The notes under the pieces were generated by a model, which was given only the letters and a program-made list of their open reading frames with translations, was not told where the DNA came from and did not search any database. Below, piece by piece: positions 9,945 through 38,879 of a DNA stretch of 64,000 nucleotides. Positions within the stretch are counted from its first letter, which is position 1. Every line of letters begins with the position of its first letter. A program made the translations under genes and the position numbers. The DNA is taken from the NCBI GenBank assembly GCA_026874595.1, contig CM049314.1:37181229-37245228 (forward strand). Reading direction: 5' to 3'. The stretch comes from Sipunculus nudus. Lineage: Eukaryota; Annelida; Sipuncula; Golfingiida; Sipunculidae.

Positions 9945-10829
9945 ATGACGAGCAACCTCGGGGAGGAAATTAGAAAGTCCCTGGACTCTGTCTACTCAAG
10001 CGAGTCAATCCATGAGGAGACACTCGCGCCAGTATTACAGCTTGGCGGGGCTATGAGTGAAGACACTCGTAAACAAGACGCAAAACGTCACAGACAGGAA
10101 TCTACAGATTCTGAGAGTACAAGCCCTTCAGCAGCTAATACACAGATGATGCATCTGACTAAGGTAATTCAAACTGTGTTATCGTCACCTTCAGTCATTA
10201 CCGCTTTTGCAGAAGCTATTCTGCCAATGATTAATGAAAAGCTTGATGAACTTATCAATGTAAAAATAAATAGTGCTCAGAAAACAACTACTGCGTCGCT
10301 GGAAATCTTGTCAAAAAGAACTTTTGAACTGGAAAATGAACTGAAACGGAGCAGAGAAATAATTGAAAAGCTCGAAACTAAACTTGACTCACTTGAACAA
10401 TATGAAAGACGACTCAATCTCCGCATTCACGGTATAGAAGAAACCGAAGGAGAACGGATTGACAATATCGTTATGACCTTTGTGCACAACAAATTAGGTC
10501 TGAAAGATATGACCCTGCACGATATACAAAGATGTCACAGAGTGGGGCCCCCAGGCAGTGGTCAGAGACCCATCATCATTAGGATGACCAGTTATAGAGG
10601 GAGAGCCGCCATATACAGTGCATGGACAAAGCTGAAGGGAACCCGCGTTTACATAAACGAAGACCTGACCGAGGAAAGGGCGCAACTGGCGTTCTTGGCA
10701 AGATGGGCAAAGAAATCAAAGGAGTCAGCCGTAAAGGACTGCTGGACGACAGACGGCAGGGTTCTGGTGAGACTGACTGATGAAAAAATACGAGAGATTA
10801 GAAGTGAGAAGGACTTGAATGGCCTGTAA
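9945..10829 (+). CDS. non-LTR retrotransposon ORF1 protein (L1 ORF1p-like fold), 294 aa
   Basis: This frame is uninterrupted from an ATG to TAA and belongs to the enclosing non-LTR element. Proteins of this type bind the element RNA as chaperones and form the ribonucleoprotein particle. The first 60 or so residues are polar and look disordered. Residues about 115-155 are heptad-rich (coiled coil, for example TFELENELKRSREIIEKLE). Residues about 157-235 begin with YERRLNLRIHGIEE, the typical start of the RRM of L1-type ORF1 proteins, with RCHRVG and RPIIIRM further on. Residues 238-294, with INEDLTEERAQ and TTDGRVLVR, match the C-terminal domain. There is no CCHC zinc knuckle. Family assignment rests on these motifs. 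Confidence 0.85.
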   Translation: MTSNLGEEIRKSLDSVYSSESIHEETLAPVLQLGGAMSEDTRKQDAKRHRQESTDSESTSPSAANTQMMHLTKVIQTVLSSPSVITAFAEAILPMINEKLDELINVKINSAQKTTTASLEILSKRTFELENELKRSREIIEKLETKLDSLEQYERRLNLRIHGIEETEGERIDNIVMTFVHNKLGLKDMTLHDIQRCHRVGPPGSGQRPIIIRMTSYRGRAAIYSAWTKLKGTRVYINEDLTEERAQLAFLARWAKKSKESAVKDCWTTDGRVLVRLTDEKIREIRSEKDLNGL

Positions 10830-10879
10830 AATATGTATGTACTTATGTATCGGAAATGTTGGAAAAAATAAAATATTGT

Positions 10880-11840
10880 AAAATGTCATTTAAATATATA
10901 CTTTATAAAAGAAAATAGGAAAGGTTAAAATGGTAAAAACAAGGAACAATATTTAAAAATAAAAGCAATTTTGTAAACTGATATTACAAGTGCAAGGAAG
11001 AAATAGAAAACGTAAATAAAAAAGGCTATAATGTAAAAATTAGATAGATATATAGAAATTGGGTGTGTAAGATCTAAAATACATACACGAGCCTTAAAAT
11101 AATGTAAAGTGATATCACAAGAGTAAAACAGAAATAAAAAACGGGTAAAAAGGTTGCATTGAAAATTGGAAAGATAAAGAGAAAGTGTGTATAAGATCTA
11201 AAATACATACTGGTCTTGAATATGTAAAGTGATATCACATGTCTAAGAAAGAAATGAGAAAATGTGAAAAATTATATATTGTAAAATTGGAAAGATATAA
11301 TAGAATATATGTGTATAAGATCTAAAATACATACTAGAGTACTGGAAATATGTAAAGTGACTTCATAAGTGAAAAGAAATTAAGAAAATGCGTAAACTGT
11401 TTATATTGTTAAAAACTTGAAAGATGTATAGAAAGTGTGTACGAGAAAAAAATACATTCGAGAGCCTTGAAGATATGTAAATTGATACCGCAAGTGTAAG
11501 AAAGAAATAGAAAAAGTGTAAAAAAAGGTTATAATGTAAAAATTGGAACGATGTACAGAAAATGTATGTATAAGATCTAAACTACATACTAGAGCCTTGA
11601 AAATATGTGAAAGGACTTCACAAGTGAAAGAAAGAAATAAGAAAATGTGTAGAAAAGGTTGATTGTAAAATTGGAAAGATGTATAGAAAATGTGTGTATA
11701 AGATCTAAATAGATACAAGAGCCTTGCAAATATGGTAAGTGACATCACAAAAGACAGGAAATAATAGAGAACGTGTAAAATGGTTATATTGTAAGTATTT
11801 GAAAGATGTCTAGGAAATGTGTGTATACATAAATATCACA
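10880..11840 (+). repeat. tandem array, about 125-bp units, between ORF1 and ORF2
   Basis: The phrase 'gatctaaaatacata' or a close variant recurs at about 11071, 11195, 11319, 11443, 11574 and 11702, a spacing of 124-131 bp. Each unit also holds 'gccttgaaaatatgtaaagtga' and 'ttggaaagatgtatagaaaatgtgtgtataa' type blocks. It lies wholly inside the non-LTR element, downstream of ORF1. Long frames on its minus strand (11401-11748) are repeat translations, not a gene. Its role is unknown; an internal promoter or spacer for ORF2 is possible. Confidence 0.85.
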
Positions 11841-12200
11841 TCTTGTTTTATTTTAGTTAGATTCGAAAGTCTGATATATTTTAATGATATAGTAAAGACT
11901 GAATGATAAAAAACAGTGAATATATGTAAAGTATATCACAGCAAGATGACATCGGAAAAAAAATACGGATAATATTGAGTAGACTTCACAAGTAAAATGT
12001 ATTACGATATTGTAAACAAACATAGGAATCTCCTACAGAACTAGTGAAATTCAAATACATTAAATTATTAGGACAGTCGAAGAAATGATAAATTACCATA
12101 CAGAAGGTTACTGTTAGGATGTAAAGATGTTCATATTTATTGCCGGAATTCTAACCTGCAAAACTATTGTCGTAGAAAGTAAACATTGTTACAAAATATA

Positions 12201-20592: not shown

Positions 20593-21811
20593 CAGTGGAA
20601 ACCCACCTTGCGACCACCCCACAAGTGCGACCACCACATAATTACGACCACTTTGCTTGGTCCCATTTTTTAAAATTTTATTTATGTTTAAAAAATACTC
20701 AAAATTACGACCACCCCTGAATTCAGAATTGCGACCAGAATTTCTGGCCCCAGCGATAATGCGACCCCGCTTATGCGACCACCGCCGAGAAGTGCTGGAA
20801 CAATTAACATTTGTCATGAGTCAATGGCTGCGCCTTGTCACAGGTACCTTAGCGAAAGATCAAACGGGTAACAAGGTTTCACAAACGAATGTTAATCTGG
20901 TTCTGCATATCTTCCTTATTTGGTGTCTGCGTTGAAACTTTTTGTGGCGTAGGTTATAGATCAAAGAGGGTAACCATTGGCCTGATTACTTAATGAGCCG
21001 GTATGCCCTTATGTCTTTGGCCAGCAATACTAATTGCCCCTCAGTGATCACCTGTATTACAGCTACCCTAAGTGCCTCAGTGAGAGTTTAATATTTCAAC
21101 TCATCACATATTTTCAATCCTCATTGGTCAAATTTATGACGAAGTTAATCCTAAATGTGTCCATATCTTACTCACACTGGGTATTGAGCAGTCAGTAAAA
21201 TGTATAAATAAAGCTTGCATGGGGGCAAATCCCACACATTGTCTTGCATTATCTGATAGATTGCTGTCAGTTTCTTTTTCAACTGGATCAGTTTGCATTT
21301 AAATTGCTTGCTGTTGTCCGACCTCCTTGAAGGAGAAAGGAGCATCTGTCAAGGCCGCAACACAAGGACGCAGTCAGCATCAACTGGCTCAGCAGTTTAG
21401 CGTCGGCAAAATTCAAGTGCACGCAATATATACTCAAGCGGATAGCAAAATATATGACACCCACGTATTAAGTTCAATATGTATTCAGTAGGTTAATTGA
21501 CTTCGTATTGCATCCAGTGTAATTATGTGTTTATCATCAGTCGATACGTATGTGTACATGTATATTAATTTTTATCATAAATAAATATATAAAATATTTT
21601 TTTTTTCAGTTATACACACAAAAAATTCATATTAAGGACCCTTTGAATAAAATATTTTGTTGTCGTTCACATTAAAGATCCGCAATTTAATATTCATTAA
21701 ACATCAGCATGTTATATGCGACCAAGGTAGGAGTTTCACAAATACGACCACCCCCGAATTACGACCACTTTGCTCAGTCCCCAGGGTGGTCATAATTGTG
21801 GGGTTCCACTG
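20593..21811. mobile_element. non-autonomous pogo/Tc1-mariner-like element, 1219 bp
   Basis: The left end starts CAGTGGAAACCCACC and the right end, inverted, CAGTGGAACCCCACA, with TA on both sides (20591-20592 and 21812-21813). Both ends carry repeated 'gcgaccacc' / 'acgaccactttgct' motifs inside the inverted repeat, which extends loosely over about 70 bp. No transposase is visible in the middle. It lies just outside the right end of repeat X. A 177-bp relative sits in ASCC1 intron 3 (27683-27859). Confidence 0.82.
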
Positions 21812-21917
21812 TATATATTTATATAGTTATATATATTTTAAAGCAAAGAAGCATACTGATCACAGTATTTCCCAAGCTGGTACAAGAAATTTTATGTTCA
21901 GTCAGTTGCCATTTGAG

Positions 21918-25052: not shown

Positions 25053-28000
25053 GTAATAAACTTCCCATGATCCTCTAGTATTTGAATTTCCATTATTTAA
25101 AGCCAGCTATTCACCTACCATTTCTGCATAATTTATGAGAATTCTGGGTTTCTCTGTGTACATATTAATGAACAGCTGGTAATTCCTGTTGAGAAACATT
25201 TTTGTAACATCTCTGAAGATTCTGATAAATATATATAAACAGAGGACTTGCACCAATGTTTACAAACAGAAAAACCATATATTATAAGATGGTTGGTTAC
25301 ACATGTGCTTGACCATTATAATCTGTATTAACCTACTAGGTTTGAAGTACATATACTTGATTGATTACTTGTGTAGCTGGTTTATGATATTATATGTTAC
25401 ATTATAATATAACACATAATATGGCTATTATAACCTGTGTTAACCTACCAGGTCTGAAGCACATATATCTGATAGATTGATAACATATACAGTTTGTAAT
25501 GACATAATATATCACATTTTATCATATTGTATTACATATATAATATATTTTGATCTAGGTGAGGAAGAAGAAGAAGAAGATCCCTATGCAGATGAAGTTT
25601 GCGATGCTTTCACAAATATAGAACAGACTGATAACGGTTATCGGATAGCACTCCCAATACCGTCAGCTTATTTTGGTGTGATCATAGGTAAAAAAGGAGA
25701 AACAAAACGCAGAATTGAAAGTGAAACAAAAGTCCAGATACGGATCCCCCGGCAGGGGCATGAAGGTGATGTAGGTAAGAAAGCTGATTAATGTTACCAT
25801 GGTTACAAAGGAGAGTGCCCTGGTCAGCTAGTAAAAAAGTTTAACAAGTTTAAAAGTTCTGATCTTCAGCATGTACTTACACTTTATATACCTTTTTTAT
25901 TGCTGCAGCCATAAAATGAAACTTATATTTGAAAATCTGGATTTCTTATTAGATCTCACCATGCAGTGTCAAAAAGTGAGTTTATCTTAAATGAGTTGTG
26001 AAAAGACCACTCCCTAAAGGATCATGGCATTGCCATAGGTGGTAATAGGAAATAAAGCATACTAAAGAGGGAAGACTCTTTGTGGCCATCATTGTTGTCA
26101 GCTGCTTAACTTGCAGATTTTGGTATTTCACTTATTATTATATATAGTCCTGCTGTACAGCATTCAAGATTCAGTTCAGTCATTTTGTGCTAAAATAATA
26201 GTGGCTGCACAAATAAAATATTTATAATTTATTGTACCCTTGACAGTAAATGGTAGGATCTGAATATTTATGACTGTAAAATAGTCATGGTTGTATAAAC
26301 CCAAAGTTCTGTAAAACTGTACCGAGACATTTCATATCTTTAACTAGAAATCTGCATAATCAAGAATACATGCTTCCTCCATGGGGGGGGGGGGGGTCCC
26401 TATTGTCATATGCTCCCAAAACTGTGCTTGCATTCACTTATTCGGCCCATATTCTCAAGTTCATTCATGTATAAGTGATTGAACATTTGTGAATATTCCT
26501 TGATGTTCCTGATTCCAGATCATGTGCCGTATCCAAACTAATATCTGATCAGTTGTTCATTGGCCCATTCCTGAAATGCCCTGAAAATTTCATGAGATTC
26601 AGTTCCACATTAAGTGAGTTATGTTGTGAACAAACACACATAAACACACACAAACAGGGATTAACACATATCCTCAACAAGTACAATGCTGATTTGAATG
26701 GCAATAAGGCTACCCTACTGTGTTGAAAATTATGTGTGTAACTCTGTCATAAGACTTATTATTATGTACAGAGTAATTAATCTGTCACACCAACAGCAGG
26801 ACTACAGAAATTACTTTTTGTAGGTTAAGAGGTCAAGTAATTGAGGGTTTCAGAAATAAAAAACTGAATCTGGTTCAGTTATGCAGCTATGCTGTAATGT
26901 AACACTCTGCATAATATAATGAACCCTTATCAGCATGTAATCTAGAATCACCATAAAGCGAGGCACATGTTGTCTGGTTGACAGCACGCACATTAAGTGG
27001 ATGAGTGGGTGGCCAGTGAATTAGGTTCTAATGAACCATTCTGCAAGGTATTACATAACCCTTTACAGTACAATATTAGCTTTTATGTGCTGTGTAATAA
27101 GTCCACAAGAGGGACTGCCATAAAGTAGTCTTAATAAAAAAGGGAATTCACAGGTCATTTATTATACAGGTCAGTTTTAAGCTTGGTTTGCATCAATTTA
27201 GTTCACTAAGAGATGGTCTTAATAGACAGGTGTTCTAATTAGATAATTGGTCTGTCAGACAGGTTCCACTGTACAGCATAATGTATTGTGTCTGTTGATA
27301 TCATGTCAGTAGCAAGCAGTAGAATTGTTGCATTTAGATTTCAAAAGCAATTTTCCTATCATGAAAGATCTATTTCTGGATATTTGTGTTATTTATTTGT
27401 TTACAGTAATAACTGGCCAAGAGAGAAAAAGCATACTATCTGCTAAGACAAGGATAGATGTGTTAGTCGATTCAGCCAGACAAAGGCAGCCATTCACACA
27501 CTTCTTGTCATTTCCTGTCAATTCTAAGCAGATCAAGGATGGGTTTGCTGAATTCCGTTCAGATGTTCTAAGAGAATGTGATGGAGTGAGTATGCAGGAT
27601 GTTGTTTTTTGGTATGCTTAAGCCAAATGTTTTCCTGAAATTTTTCTAGTTGTCATATGCACACTGTTATAAATAAAAATAACAGTGAAACCCCACAATT
27701 ACGATCATCTTGGGGACTGACCAAACTGGTCAGAATTGGGGGGTAGTTGTATTTGTGAAATTTGAAGTTACCTGGATCATATATTCGGGAGCAAGAAAAG
27801 TGGTCATAATTAGGAGGGTGGTAGCAGTTGTTGGGTGGTCAGAAGGCGGGGTTCCACTGTGCTTCCTTGAGCTGGTAGACCAGTTAATTAATGTCTTTGT
27901 TTGCCAGTTTGGTTTTCTTCCAGTAAGAAGGTATTGATTTAGATAGACATTTTATGCTTCTTAAACATCTGTCGTATGCAGGCCTCTCACTCAGTCATGA

Positions 28001-31000
28001 GCTTCAGCAGGCATCATGGCCTGCTTGACTATAAATATTTACTCCCCCGCCGTAGAATGGAATGACTACAAAAATGATCTATGTCCATTTGTGCGTCTTA
28101 CCTTCTTAGCTTCCATCTGTCAGTCTGTCTTTCCCACCGCAGTCTTTTACCACATATCTCTAAAACCCTTGCTGATTTCCTCACCAAATTTTTAGATGTA
28201 ATCAGCACATGACTTAAATGTGACTTAAGCCTGCAGGTGGTGCTACCTGTGTTTAACAATTTTCTGCTCTCCAAAATGGTCTTTTTTTACTTTCTTTCAG
28301 GTATTTTAGTAAATAAGAACACTTTAAACTTCAAATCATATGCTATGATTCCTTTGAGATAGGGGAATTCAGTGAATACTATACTAAATAGGATTATTTT
28401 CAGACTCATGATTCCACCAGAGTTCAAATTTTTCACTCTCTGTTGTTTTTGTTCATAAAAACCATTTTTCCTTATTTTTTTGTAAGAATAAGTAAATTTT
28501 CTCATCTCCCACTCTCTGTTGTTTTGGTTATTGTCACAAATCATTGCATGTTCTTGTGTTTTAGGACCGGGGACTGGATGGCACAATATTTCAGAATCCT
28601 GACAAGCTGCACTTAACGATAGGCACCTTGCCATTAATGAATGATGCTGAGATAAGAAAGGCATTAGAACTTCTCAAGCAGTGTCAGCTAGAACTTGTAG
28701 AGTAAGTGGAACAGTTTCAGTTAAATATGATGTTGTGTGATATTAATGAGATAAGACAGATGTCTGTATTATCTTTTAAAACAGAAAATGGAACTGATAT
28801 TCAGGGACCTCAGGGTATGTCATTCACTAATCACTCCTAACCCCCTCCTTAATTTCCTGAAGATGGATTTTTTTTACATTTTAATTCAGTTGCTTTTAAG
28901 TACAGTCTAACCTCTTTCATTCACCAATCTTTGGACCGGGGAAATTTTGGCGGTAAGTGAGGGTGGTGGTTGATCAGGGATCCAGATGGAATGGGCAGGG
29001 TAGCTTAAAACGGGCCATGCATTTATTAGGCTTGCCTTCAACTAGTCATATTAAAAAAAACTTTTTGAAAATGTGTACAAATTTTATTACTTTATCACAT
29101 AGAAAGAAAATTTTACAAAAAACTACAGAAAAATACAGTGTGTACAATTTATTTACAAAGATATACATGTATAACATATCCTGTCAAAATATAAAATTCT
29201 GCATGGTCCTCCTTGTGCCGTTTCACTTAAATCCAAGTCTGCCCCCAAAGAATTCTGCAATGGAGCATTGTTTACCAGCTTGTGACTGAAGAGCTGTTAT
29301 TCTTTGGTCCATCCTGTAAAATGCGTCAATATCAGACTCAGGGTTGGGTTTTATCCGGACAAAACTTGTTAAATCCAGGACAATGGATAAAACTGGGTTT
29401 TATTTGGTTTAATCCAGTTTTATCCAGATGAAACTGGATCAAACTAAGAATTGTCTTGTAAAATTTAATTAAATTAACATAAATGCTTATCAGGATAAAT
29501 AAGTTAAGAAGGTTTAATGGTATATTAACAATATTAAGTTTCATATATCCTATTGGCAATTTCCTCCAGGTTCATGTTTCACTGTTGTCAGCACTCAGCA
29601 GCCACTGTAGCTTATGCTGAACACACACAAGAATGAGGAGCAGTCCATTTGCTTCTATGTAACTCTCCTGGCTAGTAGTCAATTTATCAATAGGATGTAT
29701 CATCTTTATAACATCGTCCTCAGCCATTTAATATTTACTTATAGTCAAAGGACAGGCTTACAGGATGACTTTTGCAGCCCAGTTGTCAACAACGTATAAG
29801 AGTCTCATGGAGGAGGATGCCTGAATGACTTTGATCCAGGAGTTTTCTCCTCTCAGGTTGTCATGACTGGCTGGTTGTCAAAAGGCAGCCCACTGCTGCT
29901 GCTTATGTTAACATGCCTGAAAAATACCAGGAGTGAAAAGACAGTCACCTTACTACCATTCGGAGAAACCAACTTTGGCCAGATAGCTTTTCAAGCATTT
30001 TATCTTTTGCATCTGAGAAGTCTCTCCCTCACAATTATAGGCAGCTGATATCACTGTATATCTTAAATCATTTATGCAATATATGACTGGATTATGTACA
30101 TCTCTCTCAGTTAAGAAAAATATATGTTTATCTGTAAATATATGATATCCTATGGTACAACTGATAGTTTAGCTTTTTATAGTGTAATGCACAAAAAAGG
30201 TGATAATGTTTTAATAAGTCAAAATTATACTGACCTCTCTCAAGAAGAGAAATAATTTCAAGTTTTCAAATTATAATTAAGATCATGGTATCACTATCTG
30301 AGACAAAAAATGTGTTTTATGAATAACTGTATGGTCACATGCTAATTCAGATAGCTAGAGACAAATGTTTCTTATTAGAATTATATTATTGTACTGTGGA
30401 ATGCTAAACTTAATATAAAATGTCTACTTACAGACAGTATACACCATAACTTCGGATAAAACTGGATAAAACCTATTTTATCCGATCTTGATAAATCAGG
30501 ATATATCCAGTGGATTAAACCGGCTGCGAATAAAACTGCCAACCCTGGTCAGACTGTTTGCTGTAGTTGTAGCTTTTGAAATATCGCAAGCTGGTCTTCA
30601 TGGCCTGGCAGGATGTTGGTGGAGGTTTGGGAACTATTACATCAGGTTCACAGGTCAGACTGGCTGTATCATATTTCATGAATTAACATGCAAGGTGCCT
30701 GCTAAAGGAATATCTCATTATATCTGAGCAAGAGACCAGCATCTAGGACAATGTTCATAAAAACCATTTTTCCTTATTTTTTGTAAGAATAAGTAAACTT
30801 TTCTCATCTCCCACTGTCTGTAGTTTTGGTTATTGTCACAAATCATTGCATGTTCTTGTGTTTTAGGACTGGGGACTGGATGGCACAATATTTCAGAATC
30901 CTGACAAGCTGCACTTTACAATAGGCACCTTGCCACTTATGAACGATGCTGAGATAAGAAAGGCATTAGAGCAGTATTCTTTGGTCCATCCTGTAAAATT

Positions 31001-33839
31001 TGTCAATATCAGACTGTTTGCTGTAGCTGTAGCTCTTAAAATATTGCAAGATGGTCTTCATGGCCTGGTAGGATGTTGGTGGAGGTTTCCTCAGGTTTAC
31101 AGGTCAGACTGTCTGTACCATGGCTGCCTGTTACTGTTATCACAATATCATGATTGCTCAAAGCCTGTGCTATTCCGATACTCTGGTCAGCATTGACAAA
31201 TTCCTGAGGAGACATACGTGCACTGTGGTCAATCAGGAGGCTATCTGTAACTCTTTGCAGAAGCAGAAGGATTCTATTTGCTTCTGATCCACCTTGCTGA
31301 TCTGTTTCATTTGGCTTGTCACCCCTGGGTATGACGCCTGTGTTTTGAACAATTGCCGATGGTGTCTTTTTTGCCGGAATCCCAGGCACACTATGTCACT
31401 TTGTCACTTGCGTCACTGAGGACAATCACCTCATATGATATGGCTGGGGGCGTTGTCCATCCTTGCCTTGCCTTCTCATCAAATGACACTTAACCAGACA
31501 ACTCTAGGTGTGAAATCAACACGGGTCACTCGGGTGATGACAGCTGTCCCCAAACGATTCAAGGGTATTAAGTCATTAATTAATTAGTTGCACATGGTAC
31601 TTGATCCATAAGCAGTGAGGCGTGACATATTGTATACACGGACGTGGCCAAGTCAGCTGAGCCTCAGGGATAACACACGGGTTGGTGAAATATTCTGGAC
31701 TTGTCTTAAGTTGGAATCAGGAAGTTGGCATATAATCAAGGAAATGTGGCACCTTATGGTAAAAAAACACCTGGTGGATGGTGGATAGCTCGGCTGGCAA
31801 TGAACGAGATAAATTCATAGTAAGGAAATCAGGACTTTTGTCATTTGTTGGCTATAGGCGAGGTTGGCGAATGAACAAGGGGCGAATTAAAGAGGTTAGA
31901 CTGTATGTATGATCACTCCATAGCCAGCATGGTTTGCTTTCTTTTTAGCTTTCTAAGCTGTATGGATGAATAGTATTATAAACCTTTTTGGACGTCAGTT
32001 CAGATGGTGTCCTTGGATAAAATGATAGGCCTAAAGGTGTATCCTATTGTTATTATTGAAACAACATAATGTTTTAATGTTGAATGTAATGTATATGTCT
32101 TTATACACGTTTCATACTTTTTAGCCCTCTTTTACAATGGGAACCACTGATGGCAGACTTCCATGGCCTTGAGTACATGAATGATGATCCTGGAGCAGTT
32201 GATGTACTTTATGCCAAAGTTCAGCTGCAGGACGGCTCTCAAAGGTTGGTAAAGGAAAAAATAATACCACCATCCTGCCCACTTTTATTACTGAAATATA
32301 TTTTTGACAGATATTTTAGTTATTTCATGGATAAGTAAATATTCTCTTGTTAATGACAAATTGTCCAGGTTTTTGTAAAGAAAAATTAGTTTTATATTTA
32401 CAGTAATACACTTAAAGTTATATACTGGTAATAAGTTTGCCCATACCCTTCTTAGACAGTCACTGAATACATTACAGATATGTTGTGCATAACTGCATGC
32501 ATATTGGTTGTGCAAGCCATGGGTAAGATGTATCATCAGGATGGGGGAAATTGGCTGTTACAATAATAGATCTTTGTCTTTCAACAGATTTATATTCTGG
32601 CCATTCAATTTGGTCATTGGTGTCAGTTTTGAATGGATGTCTATGACAGAGATTAATTCATATAACATTAAACATAATACATGTAATGTACAGCTATGTT
32701 TGTTTACATGCTAAGCCAATCAGATTTCTTCTACCAGTACTACAGATTTGTTTAAACGCAGAGCCAGTCAGATTTTCCTTTTCCAGTGCAAAATGACTAG
32801 GTGTTGCCAAACCTGAAAAAGCCTGCTATTTCTCACAGCGTGTGAGTGGAAGGTTACTGGGCCTAGGCTGCGCTATGTTCAGAGCGTAAGCTTATATTTA
32901 CTCTTGTAACTGTCCTTTCAGCTGTGAACAACATATATTCACATATTGATTATATATTCTTAAGACCAAAAATAACAAATGTGTCCTGACATTTTCATCA
33001 CTCAGAGTTTTAAGTTATACAAAGTATCTAAAAACTGCTTTTTCTGTCATTTTAAACCCAACAGGTTACAAAGGTTTGCTGATGCTTTGGTGGACAAGTT
33101 TGTGAGAGCTGGACTGATGCAGAAAGATTATGACAGAGTGAAGCTCCATGTGACCGTTATGAATACACTTATGCGTAAAGACCCAAGTGGAACAAGTGTA
33201 CCTCAAAGCAAAGGTGGCCGTCCATCAGGAAAAGATCGAGAATCATTTGATGCCAGGGGAGTTCTTAGGGTAAGAAAGAACACACATACACATTACACAA
33301 GATTCTAAAATTGATTACACTGCAGGAAATTTTAAGTTAAATGATTGAATTAAACCTGTATTAATATCACTATACATAAACAATAATTAAAGATTAACTG
33401 TAATTCACCCTTGTGAATCTATAACAACATTATATGGATCGGTAGTCCACATTTTTATTAACATAAAATGTTCATATGGATATTATCATTAAAAATTAAC
33501 TAAAATATACGTGTGAAGAAGGAATGGGAATAGATGTAAACTAATAAATAAACATGATGATGCACTCATCACTGGGCTTTCACATGAACTTAGGTGCATA
33601 AGGAGCGTTACTTTTGTGGTTCAGTCTTGTGTTCATATCTCAGTTGTCTCCTTTCCTTTGGGTCCTTTGATTAATGATCTGAATCATTAGTTATGTAAAC
33701 TCTGTTCTTTGCTTCATTTCAGTTATTTGGAGACTACAAGTTTGGAGAGCATAGGATTGGTGAAGTCCATTTGTCACAAAGATATTCTACAGGACAAGAT
33801 GGATACTATGCCTGTGCAGGGAAGCTGGACCTACCCTGA
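24914..33839 (+). CDS. ASCC1: ASCC1, activating signal cointegrator 1 complex subunit 1 (7 coding exons)
   Basis: Exons 24914-25052, 25559-25774, 27407-27585, 28565-28701, 32125-32244, 33065-33269 and 33723-33839 join with matching phases into about 370 residues, close to vertebrate ASCC1. The N-terminus has VLRPPIIRIDGRFYRKNPC, the family signature. A KH domain covers about 75-130 with GxxG as GKKG (90-93). The rest is a 2H-phosphoesterase (AKAP7-like) domain with H194-L-T and H292-V-T, plus EYMNDDPGAVDVLYAKV and MNTLMRKDP. ASCC1 works with ASCC2, ASCC3 and ALKBH3 in alkylation-damage repair and transcription coactivation; that role is from the family, not this sequence. All splice sites are GT..AG. 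No frameshift or stop was seen, so the gene looks functional. Introns 3 and 4 hold transposons. Confidence 0.95.
25559..25774 (+). CDS. ASCC1: ASCC1 coding exon 2 (KH domain)
   Basis: Acceptor 'ttttgatctag', donor GTAAGA. The two leading bases complete a Ser codon with exon 1. It encodes a run of six Glu, then DPYADEVCDAF and the KH core with IIGKKGETKRRIE. It ends in phase 1. Confidence 0.93.
27407..27585 (+). CDS. ASCC1: ASCC1 coding exon 3
   Basis: Acceptor 'tttgtttacag', donor GTGAGT. The first two bases complete a Val codon, then ITGQERKSILSAKTRIDVLV finishes the KH domain, and QPFTHFLSFPVN begins the phosphoesterase domain. It ends in phase 0. Confidence 0.93.
27683..27859. mobile_element. 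pogo-like MITE in ASCC1 intron 3, 177 bp
   Basis: Left end CAGTGAAACCCCACAATTAC, right end inverted CAGTGGAACCCCGCC. The internal 'ggggactga' and 'gtggtcataatt' pieces match the ends of the 1219-bp element at 20593. A flanking TA duplication is not preserved. Confidence 0.7.
28565..28701 (+). CDS. ASCC1: ASCC1 coding exon 4 (first H-x-T motif)
   Basis: Acceptor 'cttgtgttttag', donor GTAAGT. It encodes GLDGTIFQNPDKLHLTIGTL with the first catalytic-type H-x-T of the 2H fold, and ends in phase 2. A partial second copy of this exon is at 30867-30970. Confidence 0.93.
29339..30547. mobile_element. non-autonomous hAT element, 1209 bp
   Basis: Left end CAGGGTTGGGTTTTATCCGG; right end inverted CAGGGTTGGCAGTTTTATTC. 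Target duplication ATCAGACT (29331-29338) and GTCAGACT (30548-30555), one mismatch. The empty site, with a single ATCAGACT, survives in the duplicated segment near 31008. Repeated 'taaaactgg / tttatccag' motifs sit in the first and last 150 bases. No transposase frame. TIRs are of the same type as the elements at 1526, 8616 and 22296. Confidence 0.88.
30753..30970 (+). pseudogene. ASCC1: partial duplicate of ASCC1 exon 4 with its acceptor
   Basis: This matches 28451-28668 with about ten differences by eye. It covers about 114 bp of intron, the branch and acceptor region ('tgttcttgtgttttag', ending 30866) and the first 104 of the 137 exon bases. The reading frame stays open, and the H-x-T motif is kept as H-F-T. 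The exon is cut before its donor and runs into pogo-derived sequence, still open until 31196. Splicing into it would need another donor and would lose the end of the exon, so it is probably inert, though a cryptic exon or premature polyadenylation cannot be ruled out. Confidence 0.85.
31036..31389 (-). pseudogene. pogo/Tigger-type transposase C-terminal remnant
   Basis: The minus-strand frame includes SPQEFVNADQSIGIAQALSN followed by HDIVITVTG. This resembles the EFVNAD...LTDEDII stretch near the C-terminus of pogo/Tigger transposases, where a short acidic motif is followed by a conserved helix. The DDE catalytic core was not recognised upstream. The 5' side continues toward 31900 without a clear frame, in keeping with decay. 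Confidence 0.6.
32125..32244 (+). CDS. ASCC1: ASCC1 coding exon 5
   Basis: Acceptor 'catactttttag', donor 'gttggta'. The first base completes an Asp codon with exon 4. It encodes PLLQWEPLMADFHGLEYMND then DPGAVDVLYAKVQLQDGSQ, the conserved centre of the 2H domain, and ends in phase 2. Confidence 0.93.
33065..33269 (+). CDS. ASCC1: ASCC1 coding exon 6 (second H-x-T motif)
   Basis: Acceptor 'aaacccaacag', donor GTAAGA. One base completes an Arg codon. It encodes RFADALVDKFVRAGL, then VKLHVTVMNTLMRKDP with the second H-x-T, and a Gly/Ser/Lys-rich loop before ESFDARGVLR. It ends in phase 0. Confidence 0.93.
33723..33839 (+). CDS. ASCC1: ASCC1 terminal coding exon 7
   Basis: Acceptor 'cttcatttcag'. 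It encodes LFGDYKFGEHRIGEVHLSQR and ends GKLDLP followed by TGA. The pattern agrees with the conserved C-terminal strand of ASCC1. No obvious AATAAA follows within the next 150 bases, so the poly-A site is not placed. Confidence 0.92.
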   Translation, partial: LFGDYKFGEHRIGEVHLSQRYSTGQDGYYACAGKLDLP

Positions 33840-34349
33840 TTTCCAGCAGAAGTTTGTAATTCTCGTACCACAAAACATTTGTAAAAAGTGACTGTCTCAT
33901 AAAGATTTCATGAAGCCTGCAATGTAGTTATCAGATTTCATGCTGCGACTACAGGACTGACAGATGTCACTATCAATTTTAAATTTAATACATATGTGAT
34001 AAATGATAAGCATACATACATTTTATGTCCATCGTTGTTAGCTTGGCTAATGTCTTCATTATGTTCATATAATCATGTTCAAATATTGACAAGCATGTCG
34101 GGTTAATGTTCTTTGAGGAAGCTCCAATGACCTGAAGAGATACCATAACAAGATGACCAGAGGTCACGCGCTTGCCGGAAATGGAAATGATAGAGACAGA
34201 TAGACAGAGAGTGCATGTAGAAACAGTCATATGAATGAGCAACATTGTTGGGGCAGCAGAAACGGATAATATGTTTATTTATGCATGCTGACCTTTAACC
34301 GCTGCATATCTTTCTAGTGTAAAAGGGACCAAGTTCAAAATTTTTTCAT

Positions 34350-35100
34350 GAAATCCCGTTAATCTCGTTTGACAAGAAGCAGTGAGACGTTTTCAGGTTT
34401 GTCATTTCAAGCTGGCCAAATGATATGAAATGCCGAAAATTAGACCTGTCTAGCTACAAAAGCCGCTTAGTTATAAGCATTTGCATGAAATCTCGTGTTT
34501 TCTCGTTTGACGGGAAATGGTGCGAGCTTTGGCGAGATTTCCAGTTTTGTCATGTCAGGTTTGTCAAATATTACAAAATGCCGGAAACTAGAACTGTCTA
34601 GCTGCAAAAGTCGCCGTGTTATCAGCATTTACGTGAAATCATGTTTTTTTTCTCGCTTGACGAGATATAGTACGAGATTTGGCAAGACGAGCAGTTTTAT
34701 TATGTCAAGACGGCCAAACGTTACGAAATGGCGAAAACTAGATCTGTCTAGCTGTAAAAGTCACCGAGTTATAAGCATTTCTGTGAAATCCCGTGTTTTC
34801 TCGTTTGACAAGATACGGTGCGAGATTTGGCCTGTCTTGCAGCTCTGTCGTGTCAGTTTTGTTTGGTGGAACGAAATGCCGAAAACCATACCTGTCTAGC
34901 TGTAAAAGTCGCCGAGTTATAAGCATTTCCGCGAAGTCCTTTTTTTTCTCGTTTGACGAGATATGGCGCGAGATTTGGCGTGACTTTCAGTTCTGTCGTG
35001 TCAAGCTGGTCATGTGGAACAAAATGCCGAAAACTAGATCTGCTTGCTTAAAAACTGACAAAGTTACAAAAAAATGGTCGTGTTATTTCCAAATTCCATG
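34350..35100 (+). repeat. tandem array, about 148-bp units, five copies
   Basis: The phrase 'ctcgtttgacgaga' recurs at about 34364, 34502, 34652, 34800 and 34948. Each unit continues with 'tggtgcgagatttggcgaga', 'gaaatgccgaaaactagacctgtctagctg' and 'aaaagtcgccgagttataagcatt' type sequence. Spacing is 138-150 bp. Overlapping open frames across it are repeat translations. Related single units recur at about 37653 and 38107. Confidence 0.9.
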
Positions 35101-35395
35101 ATTTTTGCCCAAAAAATATAACCATGGTAACGGCAAATTTAAGTAAGCTACATGTAAAAAGAAAGGCCAGGTGATGTCGAAAAAAATGAGCGATTGCAGA
35201 AGTGGATAAGCCTATTTATGGCGAAGTTAAAGTGCAAAAACCGTTAACCATACCTGTCGTGACCTTGACCCTTGACCTTGGAGCAATGCTGACCAAAAAC
35301 AATAGGGCACCTAGAAATCGGTTTATCAATCAAGCCTGTAAGTTTCAAGTTGATTGATGCAAAAGTGTGGCCTGGAGAGTCGTGACAAACAAACA
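35100..35395 (+). repeat. direct repeat, copy 1 (partner at 38550-38840)
   Basis: It begins near 'ataaccatggtaacggcaaa' and includes 'gtgaccttgacccttgacct' and 'agagtcgtgacaaacaaac'. It matches the partner at 38550-38840 with few differences over about 295 bp. Confidence 0.88.
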
Positions 35396-37330
35396 AACTA
35401 GACGACCAGAGGTCGAACGCTTGGCGGACTAAAATGACATAGAGATTGGAGAAACATGACAAACTGTCATTTTCTATTGAAAGACTTTTTAAGCGATTGC
35501 TGGAAAGTTTGGCCTGTTGAACGACATATATCACACAAAAGAACATGTAAGCAGACATAGCTCAAAACAGACAGATATACTGACACACCTGAGATAACAG
35601 ACCACCAGAAAAAAGTTGGGAACGTAAAGAGAAGCAAAATGAGCTATAGTTTTAGTAGGTAGAGTTTATAGTGTCGGAGGTATGGCCAATATATGGTAGC
35701 GGCCATATCCCAAACATTAAAAATTTCTTTTGAGACTCTAGTGTAAGAAATAAGATGTTGTTCCAGTTCCAAAAGGATTCCTGCAAAACTGTGTCCTGAA
35801 AATTGCTAACTGCAAGAAGCAAGGTCCAGCAAGCAGGCGAAATTTAGGATCACTGACAAACAGACAGACATACTCAAAAAATGACACAAGAATAAGACCA
35901 GATGACCTACTCAGATTATCGAGTAGATTCAGAGGAAGAAAATAAATCATAGTTTTTAATTGGCTACACTGCTTTTTTAAAGTTGCATTTACCCAATCTC
36001 TTCTTATAAAACCCGCAGAAACCTACCATAGAATAATTCTTGTAAAGTTTAAACCAATCAGCTTAACAGTTTCATCATAAAACAGTGTATAAGCTGGAGT
36101 GTCTAAAATTACATTTTCCCTTGTAAAAAAACAGATCAATGTAGGTGGCGCCACCAAAACCTCAATTTCAGATATGACATATGAGACAAACATAGGTATT
36201 AAAATTTGGTAATGACAGCTCTAGCCGTTTCTGAGATTTAAATTTTAGTTTGCTTTTTTGGACAGATGACTAAGTTCAACTTCCTGTTAAATCTCCGAAC
36301 TGAAACCATTCGAACAAACTTGAGATAGATTGTTCAAGAGATCATTTCTTAGAAATATTTGAAAATTTGGCTGGACAGTTTCGCAGAAGAAGATTTTTAA
36401 AGCCTTTTTAGCTTTTTTCCCTATAAAATCTCAGTAAATGCAGAAAGCCAAAAAATAAACAAAAATTGATAGAGCTTTTCAGATGACTGTTTATTAACAA
36501 AAAAATTGGTAATGCTAGTTCCTGCCGTTTTTGAGATAGCTATGGTTAACCTACAGACGACGAACGAAGCTGCACCATAGCATAAGCTCATAGATTCGCT
36601 AATAATCTGTTTCGAGATATAACTGTAAGACATAAGATTTAATAGTTTAAAAAAGATTCTTTCAAAACTGTGGCCTGTAGAATTCTATTAGTGAGACGAA
36701 AGAACAAAGAAGCAGGCGAATTTGAGGACAACTGACAAACAAACAGACATATTGCCAACGGGACACAAGATAAAGACAAGATGACTTAACCAGGTTATGA
36801 GGAAGACTCAGAGGAAGAAAATAAGGTATAGTTTATGTAATTGAGGTTTCTATTTTTGGAGATATGGCCAAATAATGATATACTGGGATTTTCGACTGCA
36901 GCGCCCTCTAGTGGACATATCCTGAAGACGACAAATGCGTTTCGTGATATTAGTGAATGGCATGAGATGTAATCGTTTCAAAAGGATTCCTCCAAATATC
37001 TGGCTTGTTGATTGCTATATGTGAGATGCAACAACCAGCAAGTAGGCTAATTCGAAGATAACTGACAAACACACAGACATACTGACAAGGTAACACAAGA
37101 TGGACACCAGATGACGTTACCATGTTTTGCAGAAGGCCAAGAGAAAGAAAAAAAGCTACAGTTTGTGTAATATAGGTTTACTCTTACGGAAATATGTCCA
37201 AAAACTGATTTGTTTGGATGGGTCAAGTGCAGCGCCCCCTATCAGCCATATCCGGAAAATGAAAAATAAGTTTTGAGATATTAGTGTAAAACATAAGATG
37301 AAGGAACAAACATACGCGGGTGACGAACAT

Positions 37331-37500: not shown

Positions 37501-38549
37501 GGCGAAAAACGGCGCGAGATTTGACGAGACTAACAATGTGACCCCTGAATGTGACTGCGAGTGTCAGCCGCTATCCAGCGCTGCAAACCATGTGTCTGTA
37601 GCGTGAAAAATGACAGTATTTTAGGCATTTCTTTGAAGGGTCACGTGTTCTCGTTTCACGAGAAACGGTGCGAGATATGACGAGACTTGCGATTGAACGG
37701 CTTAGAACTAGAGGGATGCTGTCTAACGCCAAAAACCAGACCTTTCTATCGCAAATATCAACAGAGATAGAAGCTGGAAAACTCCGAATTTTCAGATTGT
37801 CAAGTTTTACCCCAAAATTTGGTAACCATGGTAACGGCAGCACAAAGCAACATGTGCGAAGGGATAAGCCAATGTTCCTAGTTTCAGATACGACCAAAAA
37901 AATGGTGTCACGTTTAATATTTTTTGAGATATTGCAGAAAAATGATATGTTACAGTGTTCCATGTACCACGCCCCCTGGTGGCTATTTCCAAAAAATGAA
38001 AAACCGATTTCGAGATATTTACAAATAACAGAAAATATATCAATTTCAAAGGCATTGTTTAAAAAATGCAACCTGAAGGTCATATTTAATGAAATCTCGA
38101 AGACTCTCGTTTGACGAGAAACGGTGCGAGATGTTGCAAGATTTTTGATTGGATCACCGAGAACTCACCAAGGGCTACAAGATGCAAAAAAAATGACCTC
38201 TCCAGCATAAAAACTGACAGAGTTAGAAGCTGAAAACTGCATATTTTCAAAATTCAAAAGTTTTACCCCAAAAATAGAGAAATCTGGCAATAGCGCACTT
38301 TGGCACCTATGCGCAAAAATAAGCCCATGGACCCCAGGTGAAGGTGCTGTGATGGAAATGGCCCAATGTTTAATAGTTCTGGAGGTATAGCACCAAAACA
38401 AATTTTCATGTTTTTTCATCTGCAACGCCCCCTGGCGGCCATTTCCAAAATCTGAAAAAACAATTTCGAGATATTCTTGTGTTACATAAAATATCTCAGA
38501 ATCAGTACGATTGCTGCAAATTTGAAAAATATCACGAAATCCCATGATT

Positions 38550-38840
38550 CCTCCCCAAAAAATGTAACCATGGTAACGGCAAATTTAAGTAAGCTACATG
38601 TCAAAAGAAAGGCCAGGTGATGACGAAAAAAATGAGCTATTGCAGAAGTGGATAAGCCTATTAATGGCGAAGTTATAGTGCAAAAACCGTTAACCATACC
38701 TGTCGTGACCTTGACCCTTGACCTTGGAGCAATGTTGACCAAAAACAATAGGGCACCTAGAAATCGGTTTGTCAATCAAGCCCGTAAGTTTCAAGTTGAT
38801 TGTTGCAAAAGTGTGACCTGGAGAGTCGTGACAAACAAAC
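38550..38840 (+). repeat. direct repeat, copy 2 (partner at 35100-35395)
   Basis: Second copy of the roughly 295-bp block with 'gtaaccatggtaacggcaaa' and 'gtgaccttgacccttgacct'. Here it continues through a CAGACAAA simple repeat to the hairpin at 38880. Confidence 0.88.
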
Positions 38841-38879
38841 AGACAAACAGACAAACAGACATACGCAACTGACGAACAT

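Follow-up and report, generated by a model that had tools for sequence, protein, structure and literature searches.

How did a partial copy of ASCC1 exon 4, complete with its splice acceptor, come to lie inside a transposon in the next intron of the Sipunculus nudus gene, and does the gene use it? The copy and its possible splicing, but not its origin, were brought up by a first-pass annotation of the 64,000-nucleotide stretch analyzed here (GenBank assembly GCA_026874595.1, contig CM049314.1, positions 37,181,229 to 37,245,228 of the forward strand), which is called the window and to which coordinates refer unless another locus is named. We consider it very probable that template-switching repair inside an intronic pogo/Tigger element captured the exon fragment, and that the result is a single-copy Pack-TIR, most likely without function.

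The parent exon and its partial copy

ASCC1 exons 1 to 6 were found in order on the + strand by tblastn. The human ASCC1 query served as a lead only, and the identification rests on the Pfam and PDB matches: the protein joined from exons 3-6 gave a 188-residue match to the ASCC1 structure 8tuk (E = 3e-75), and exon 4 alone matched Pfam AKAP7_NLS, the AKAP7-type phosphoesterase domain. Exon 4 (28565..28701, + strand, 137 bp) is intact, starts in phase 0 and ends in phase 2, leaving two bases for exon 5, and is flanked by the acceptor TTTTAG and the donor AGA/GTAAGT (the slash marks the exon end). Exon 3 (27407..27585, + strand, donor GGA/GTGAGT) and exon 5 (32125..32244, + strand) were placed by tblastn and sequence, the 3′ edge of exon 5 being uncertain (32244 or 32248). 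Intron 3 also holds a short repeat at 27670-27870, with ends like CAGTGAAACCCC / GGGGTTCCACTG, which is perhaps a further pogo-type miniature element; part of it was found again in inverted orientation at 21734-21825 (84%).

Self-comparison of the window revealed a pair of direct repeats, 28450-28668 and 30752-30970, each 219 bp long, lying in cis in the same orientation and 2302 bp apart (E = 3e-95). In their alignment 210 of 220 columns were identical, the remainder being 8 mismatches and 2 one-base gaps. The parent segment (28450..28668, + strand) comprises the end of intron 3, the acceptor and the first 104 bp of exon 4; its copy (30752..30970, + strand, 95%) thus combines 115 bases of intron end, including the acceptor, with 104 of the exon's 137 bases (30867..30970, + strand). 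The partial duplication about 2.3 kb downstream at about 95% identity, and the share of the exon included in it, were as the first-pass annotation had described them; the length given there, 218 bp, fell one base short, because an extra matching T is present at 28450/30752. When the parent segment was searched against the whole 1.43-Gb assembly, it was found at 2 loci, with 100% and 95% identity.

The copied part of the exon carries 6 substitutions, 2 of which are amino-acid changing: R>W, and L>F, by which HLT becomes HFT. The H-x-T motif is therefore retained, as had been proposed, in the form HFT instead of HLT. Exon 4 reads DRG and HLT like 8tuk, and the copy reads DWG and HFT. Since the parent matches 8tuk at both protein differences, these two changes occurred in the copy, and for them the order from parent to copy is established.

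The surrounding pogo/Tigger element and its rearrangement

The copy had also been placed inside a pogo element, and the termini bear this out. The element (28903..31903) lies in ASCC1 intron 4 between TA target-site duplications (28901..28902 on the left, 31904-31905 on the right), and its terminal inverted repeats begin with CAGTCTAACCTCTTT at both ends and match at 21 of 24 bases; a TA duplication and terminal repeats starting with CAG are the marks of pogo/Tigger elements. Dozens of relatives with 73-87% identity are present in the same genome. One of them with the same ends, L071, encodes the Pfam domains HTH_Tnp_Tc5 (1.4e-14) and DDE_1 (3.3e-44), and this combination of a Tc5-type DNA-binding domain and a DDE_1 nuclease domain indicates that the family is pogo/Tigger-like. 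The window element is non-autonomous. A 119-codon open remnant on its - strand (31039..31395) resembles the C-terminal part of the family transposase, is alike in L071, L078 and L080, and gave no Pfam match of its own.

Alignment to other copies, with internal positions numbered as in locus L063, showed that the window element runs from its left end to ~763, continues with a filler of 79 bp and the ASCC1 segment, and resumes at ~599 to reach its right end. About 150-165 bp of the element are present twice, as segment A1 (29290..29338 + 30556..30672, split by a hAT insertion) and segment A2 (30968..31121), and the filler and the exon fragment occupy exactly the space between them. A1 and A2 grouped as sisters (support 0.96) in a tree that included 20 relatives, and both have the same 9-bp deletion, indicating that the segment was duplicated in place, within this element. 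The element duplication flanking the exon fragment is private to this copy of the family. The joints of the insert are internal to the element instead of terminal, and at the right joint the captured exon end and A2 share a 3-bp microhomology, AGA at 30968-30970, which is common to both templates and weakly above chance, as random joints reach 3 bp in ~6% of cases.

For the filler (30673..30751), a whole-genome similarity search gave no match elsewhere in the assembly, a search for a 33-base pattern allowing up to 3 mismatches gave no source, and sensitive local alignment against 20 copies of the element and the ASCC1 locus gave none clearly above shuffled sequence.

The insertion that splits A1 (29339..30547, 1209 bp, ends CAGGGTTGG) is of hAT type. 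It is bounded by an 8-bp target duplication with one mismatch (29331-29338, ATCAGACT; 30548-30555, GTCAGACT), and dozens of genomic copies, up to 89-92% identical, have the same start and end bases; the 8-bp target duplication and the matching ends in a repeat family are what assigns it to this type. It is missing from A2 and from the other pogo family copies, and most simply it was inserted after the duplication. Another copy of this hAT-type element (C12:76917042-76919415) holds a 28-bp tandem array of its end region.

Two similar copies placed close together could in principle be produced by faulty assembly. An artefact of this kind is scarcely credible here, since the copies have diverged by ~5%, have joints of their own and are separated by a hAT insertion and an unrelated stretch of 79 bp.

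Internal duplications were also observed elsewhere in the family. At least 4 other copies carry tandem or displaced ones, with tandem duplications of 186-322 bp (89-98%) located inside or at the end of L066 745-1385, L071 1211-1642 and L072 164-534. In L079 (G000:C2:40210765-40213900), positions 612-759 and 1066-1213 duplicate nearly the same internal segment at 99%, and the duplication is directly followed by a terminal-repeat-like end (GGTTAGAGTGTA), which suggests that template switching has been repeated in this part of the element. Among the 20 sampled copies, which were chosen by similarity, the pogo family seems prone to internal duplication. A hairpin was considered as the cause of breakage, and the folding of the duplicated element segment was not unusual (z = -1.06).

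Other repeats were noted in the window. A 308-bp direct duplication (35091-35398 and 38537-38844, 95%, 3.4 kb apart) adjoins diverged tandem repeats at 34300-37300, a tandem array of diverged copies (about 75%) occupies 10972-11827, and the region 10001-12000 is strongly asymmetric between the strands for G and A (GC skew 0.25, AT skew 0.26).

Origin of the insert

How the copy arose is the best-supported part of the answer given here. With the structure, the copy number and the intact parent observed directly, we infer template switching as the repair mechanism, since such repair leaves as its signature a filler templated nearby, joints that fall within the element, microhomology and a jump backwards. 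A non-autonomous pogo/Tigger element would first have inserted into ASCC1 intron 4. A break or a stalled replication fork would later have arisen inside it and been repaired with template switching: synthesis would have left the element, copied 79 bases from elsewhere and then 219 bases of the exon-4 region ~2.3 kb off (the present spacing, which includes the later 1.2-kb hAT element), and re-entered the element ~165 bp behind the point of departure by means of the 3-bp microhomology (AGA). The expected product is a partial exon with its acceptor intact and without a donor of its own, and the hAT-type element would afterwards have inserted into the left duplicate.

Since pogo elements are mobile and mobile elements are known to capture genes, the fragment might instead have been taken up at another locus by an element that subsequently moved into ASCC1, as in the mobile gene capture of Pack-MULEs. 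Such a history is very improbable, because the genome contains no further copy of the captured fragment, the parent lies 2.3 kb away in the same gene and the flanking element duplication is private to this copy; on copy number, this history was rejected.

The divergence of the duplicates bears on whether a single event was sufficient. The element duplicates differ at 12/147 positions and the exon-region duplicates at 8/218 (p = 0.10), and the contrast is stronger with the intron part alone (2/114, p = 0.03 uncorrected). As the element duplicates have diverged more, a single event is less than certain, and the figures would fit two steps, in which duplication of the element segment preceded the exon fragment, which was either added later or kept alike by gene conversion with its parent. 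We regard this as unlikely, since the numbers are small, A2 alone seems to hold the excess (9 private changes vs 3 in A1), and the exon fragment lies exactly at the seam of the element duplication. The greater divergence of the element duplicates may be noise, or may point to a second step or to conversion between exon 4 and the copy.

Capture in place by template-switching repair, the preferred reading, agrees well with what has been reported for single-copy Pack-TIRs of animals, which have a median size of 224 bp and a median microhomology of 2 bp, derive mostly from nearby parents <5 kb away, and were ascribed by the authors to gap filling independent of transposition (PMC8277862). One example given by Tan et al. 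2021 is a gibbon Pack-Tigger1, a Tigger element (PMC8277862). The locus described here likewise consists of a TIR transposon, and a Tigger element, that contains a few hundred bases of nearby non-transposon sequence in a single copy, with the parent within 5 kb and microhomology at a joint (PMC8277862). Both element ends are found around the captured 219 bp, which fall in the range of 100-5000 bp, and an unambiguous parent is present outside the element at 95% identity, against a cut-off of at least 90%. Insert and parent are of similar length (80-120%) if the 219-bp piece is taken by itself; the stretch between the element parts also includes the 79-bp filler, and the hAT element lies nearby. 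The published screen leaves out parents with a transposon within 100 bp (PMC8277862); the parent segment in the window ends 234 bp before the element.

Pack-TIRs typically show a small loss, whereas the window element has ~165 bp duplicated around the insert, an adjoining 79-bp filler and a later interruption by the hAT element. In its backward jump the locus resembles replication-based switching more than it does the small losses of Pack-TIRs. With P-element gap repair and with FoSTeS/MMBIR (PMC2621351) it has in common a local templated filler, copied pieces that are discontinuous, a short microhomology and the jump backwards; here the end product alone is seen, from which excision, a break and a stalled fork are indistinguishable. 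The presence of host exon fragments inside a DNA transposon is also a feature of plant Pack-MULEs, but the fragment in the window was not amplified by transposition and its carrier belongs to a different superfamily. The event itself is confirmed and is well explained as a probable single-copy Pack-TIR of pogo/Tigger type with a neighboring exon fragment, a kind of event already known.

Splicing potential of the copied exon

The first-pass annotation suggested a truncated or altered phosphoesterase domain or a decoy acceptor as consequences, and either would be possible. Over the 41 intron bases that precede the acceptor, parent and copy are identical, so that the copied acceptor could be recognized. 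The exon-4 donor and the last 33 exon bases are missing from the copy. If the exon-3 donor were joined directly to the copy (27585 to 30867), the frame would be kept and would remain open for 109 codons, in agreement with the open frame of the first-pass annotation; if exon 4 were joined to it (28701 to 30867), the predicted frame shift would lead to a stop after 19 codons of the copy.

As no donor was copied, an in-frame exon would need one from the transposon, such as the best in-frame candidate, CAG/GTCAGA (31100..31105, + strand, last exon base 31102). It scored 7.96 vs 6.48 for the real exon-4 donor by a rough textbook consensus matrix, which ranks sites poorly, and one in-frame donor among three good candidates is no more than chance. 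With this donor, the predicted transcript joining exon 3, the copy (30867-31102, 236 nt) and exon 5 would be in frame and stop-free, and would exchange the last 11 residues of exon 4 for 44 transposon-derived ones.

These predictions allow the copied exon to be viewed as a used alternative exon that tunes ASCC1, either mutually exclusive with exon 4, by way of the shared acceptor region and the higher-scoring in-frame donor (7.96 vs 6.48), or as a poison exon, with the stop 19 codons in when both exons are included. Such use is highly unlikely. The parent has remained intact, both the donor and the final 33 exon bases are absent from the copy, the 44 transposon residues would enter the phosphoesterase domain, and a strong donor in frame among three is expected by chance. 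The 2 amino-acid changes among 6 exon changes also fit a neutral copy (P = 0.14 under a neutral copy and a conserved parent), and by this weak test there is no significant sign of constraint on the copied coding sequence.

A decoy role, in which the copied acceptor would lower ASCC1 output by low-level mis-splicing without being selected for it, is less doubtful and is compatible with the origin by template-switching repair. An identical acceptor sequence lies within a transcribed intron, and 5/8 human Pack-TIRs with exonic sources are transcribed, often as chimeras with host genes (PMC8277862). The real acceptor, however, lies closer to the donor of exon 3, and exon definition would have no copied donor to support it; we hold such an effect to be possible but somewhat improbable. 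Judged from its sequence, the copy is probably a non-functional pseudoexon, the acceptor of which would at most cause mis-splicing at a low level, mostly yielding premature stops.

The locus offers a clear example of how repair in an intronic transposon plants a ready-made acceptor and a partial exon beside the original, and it extends the known animal Pack-TIRs by a pogo/Tigger case from a further genome. Its importance for ASCC1 is small unless RNA shows that the copy is used. Should the copy prove to be a mutually exclusive or poison exon, a repair accident in a transposon would have given ASCC1 a regulated isoform whose phosphoesterase domain contains a transposon-derived stretch.
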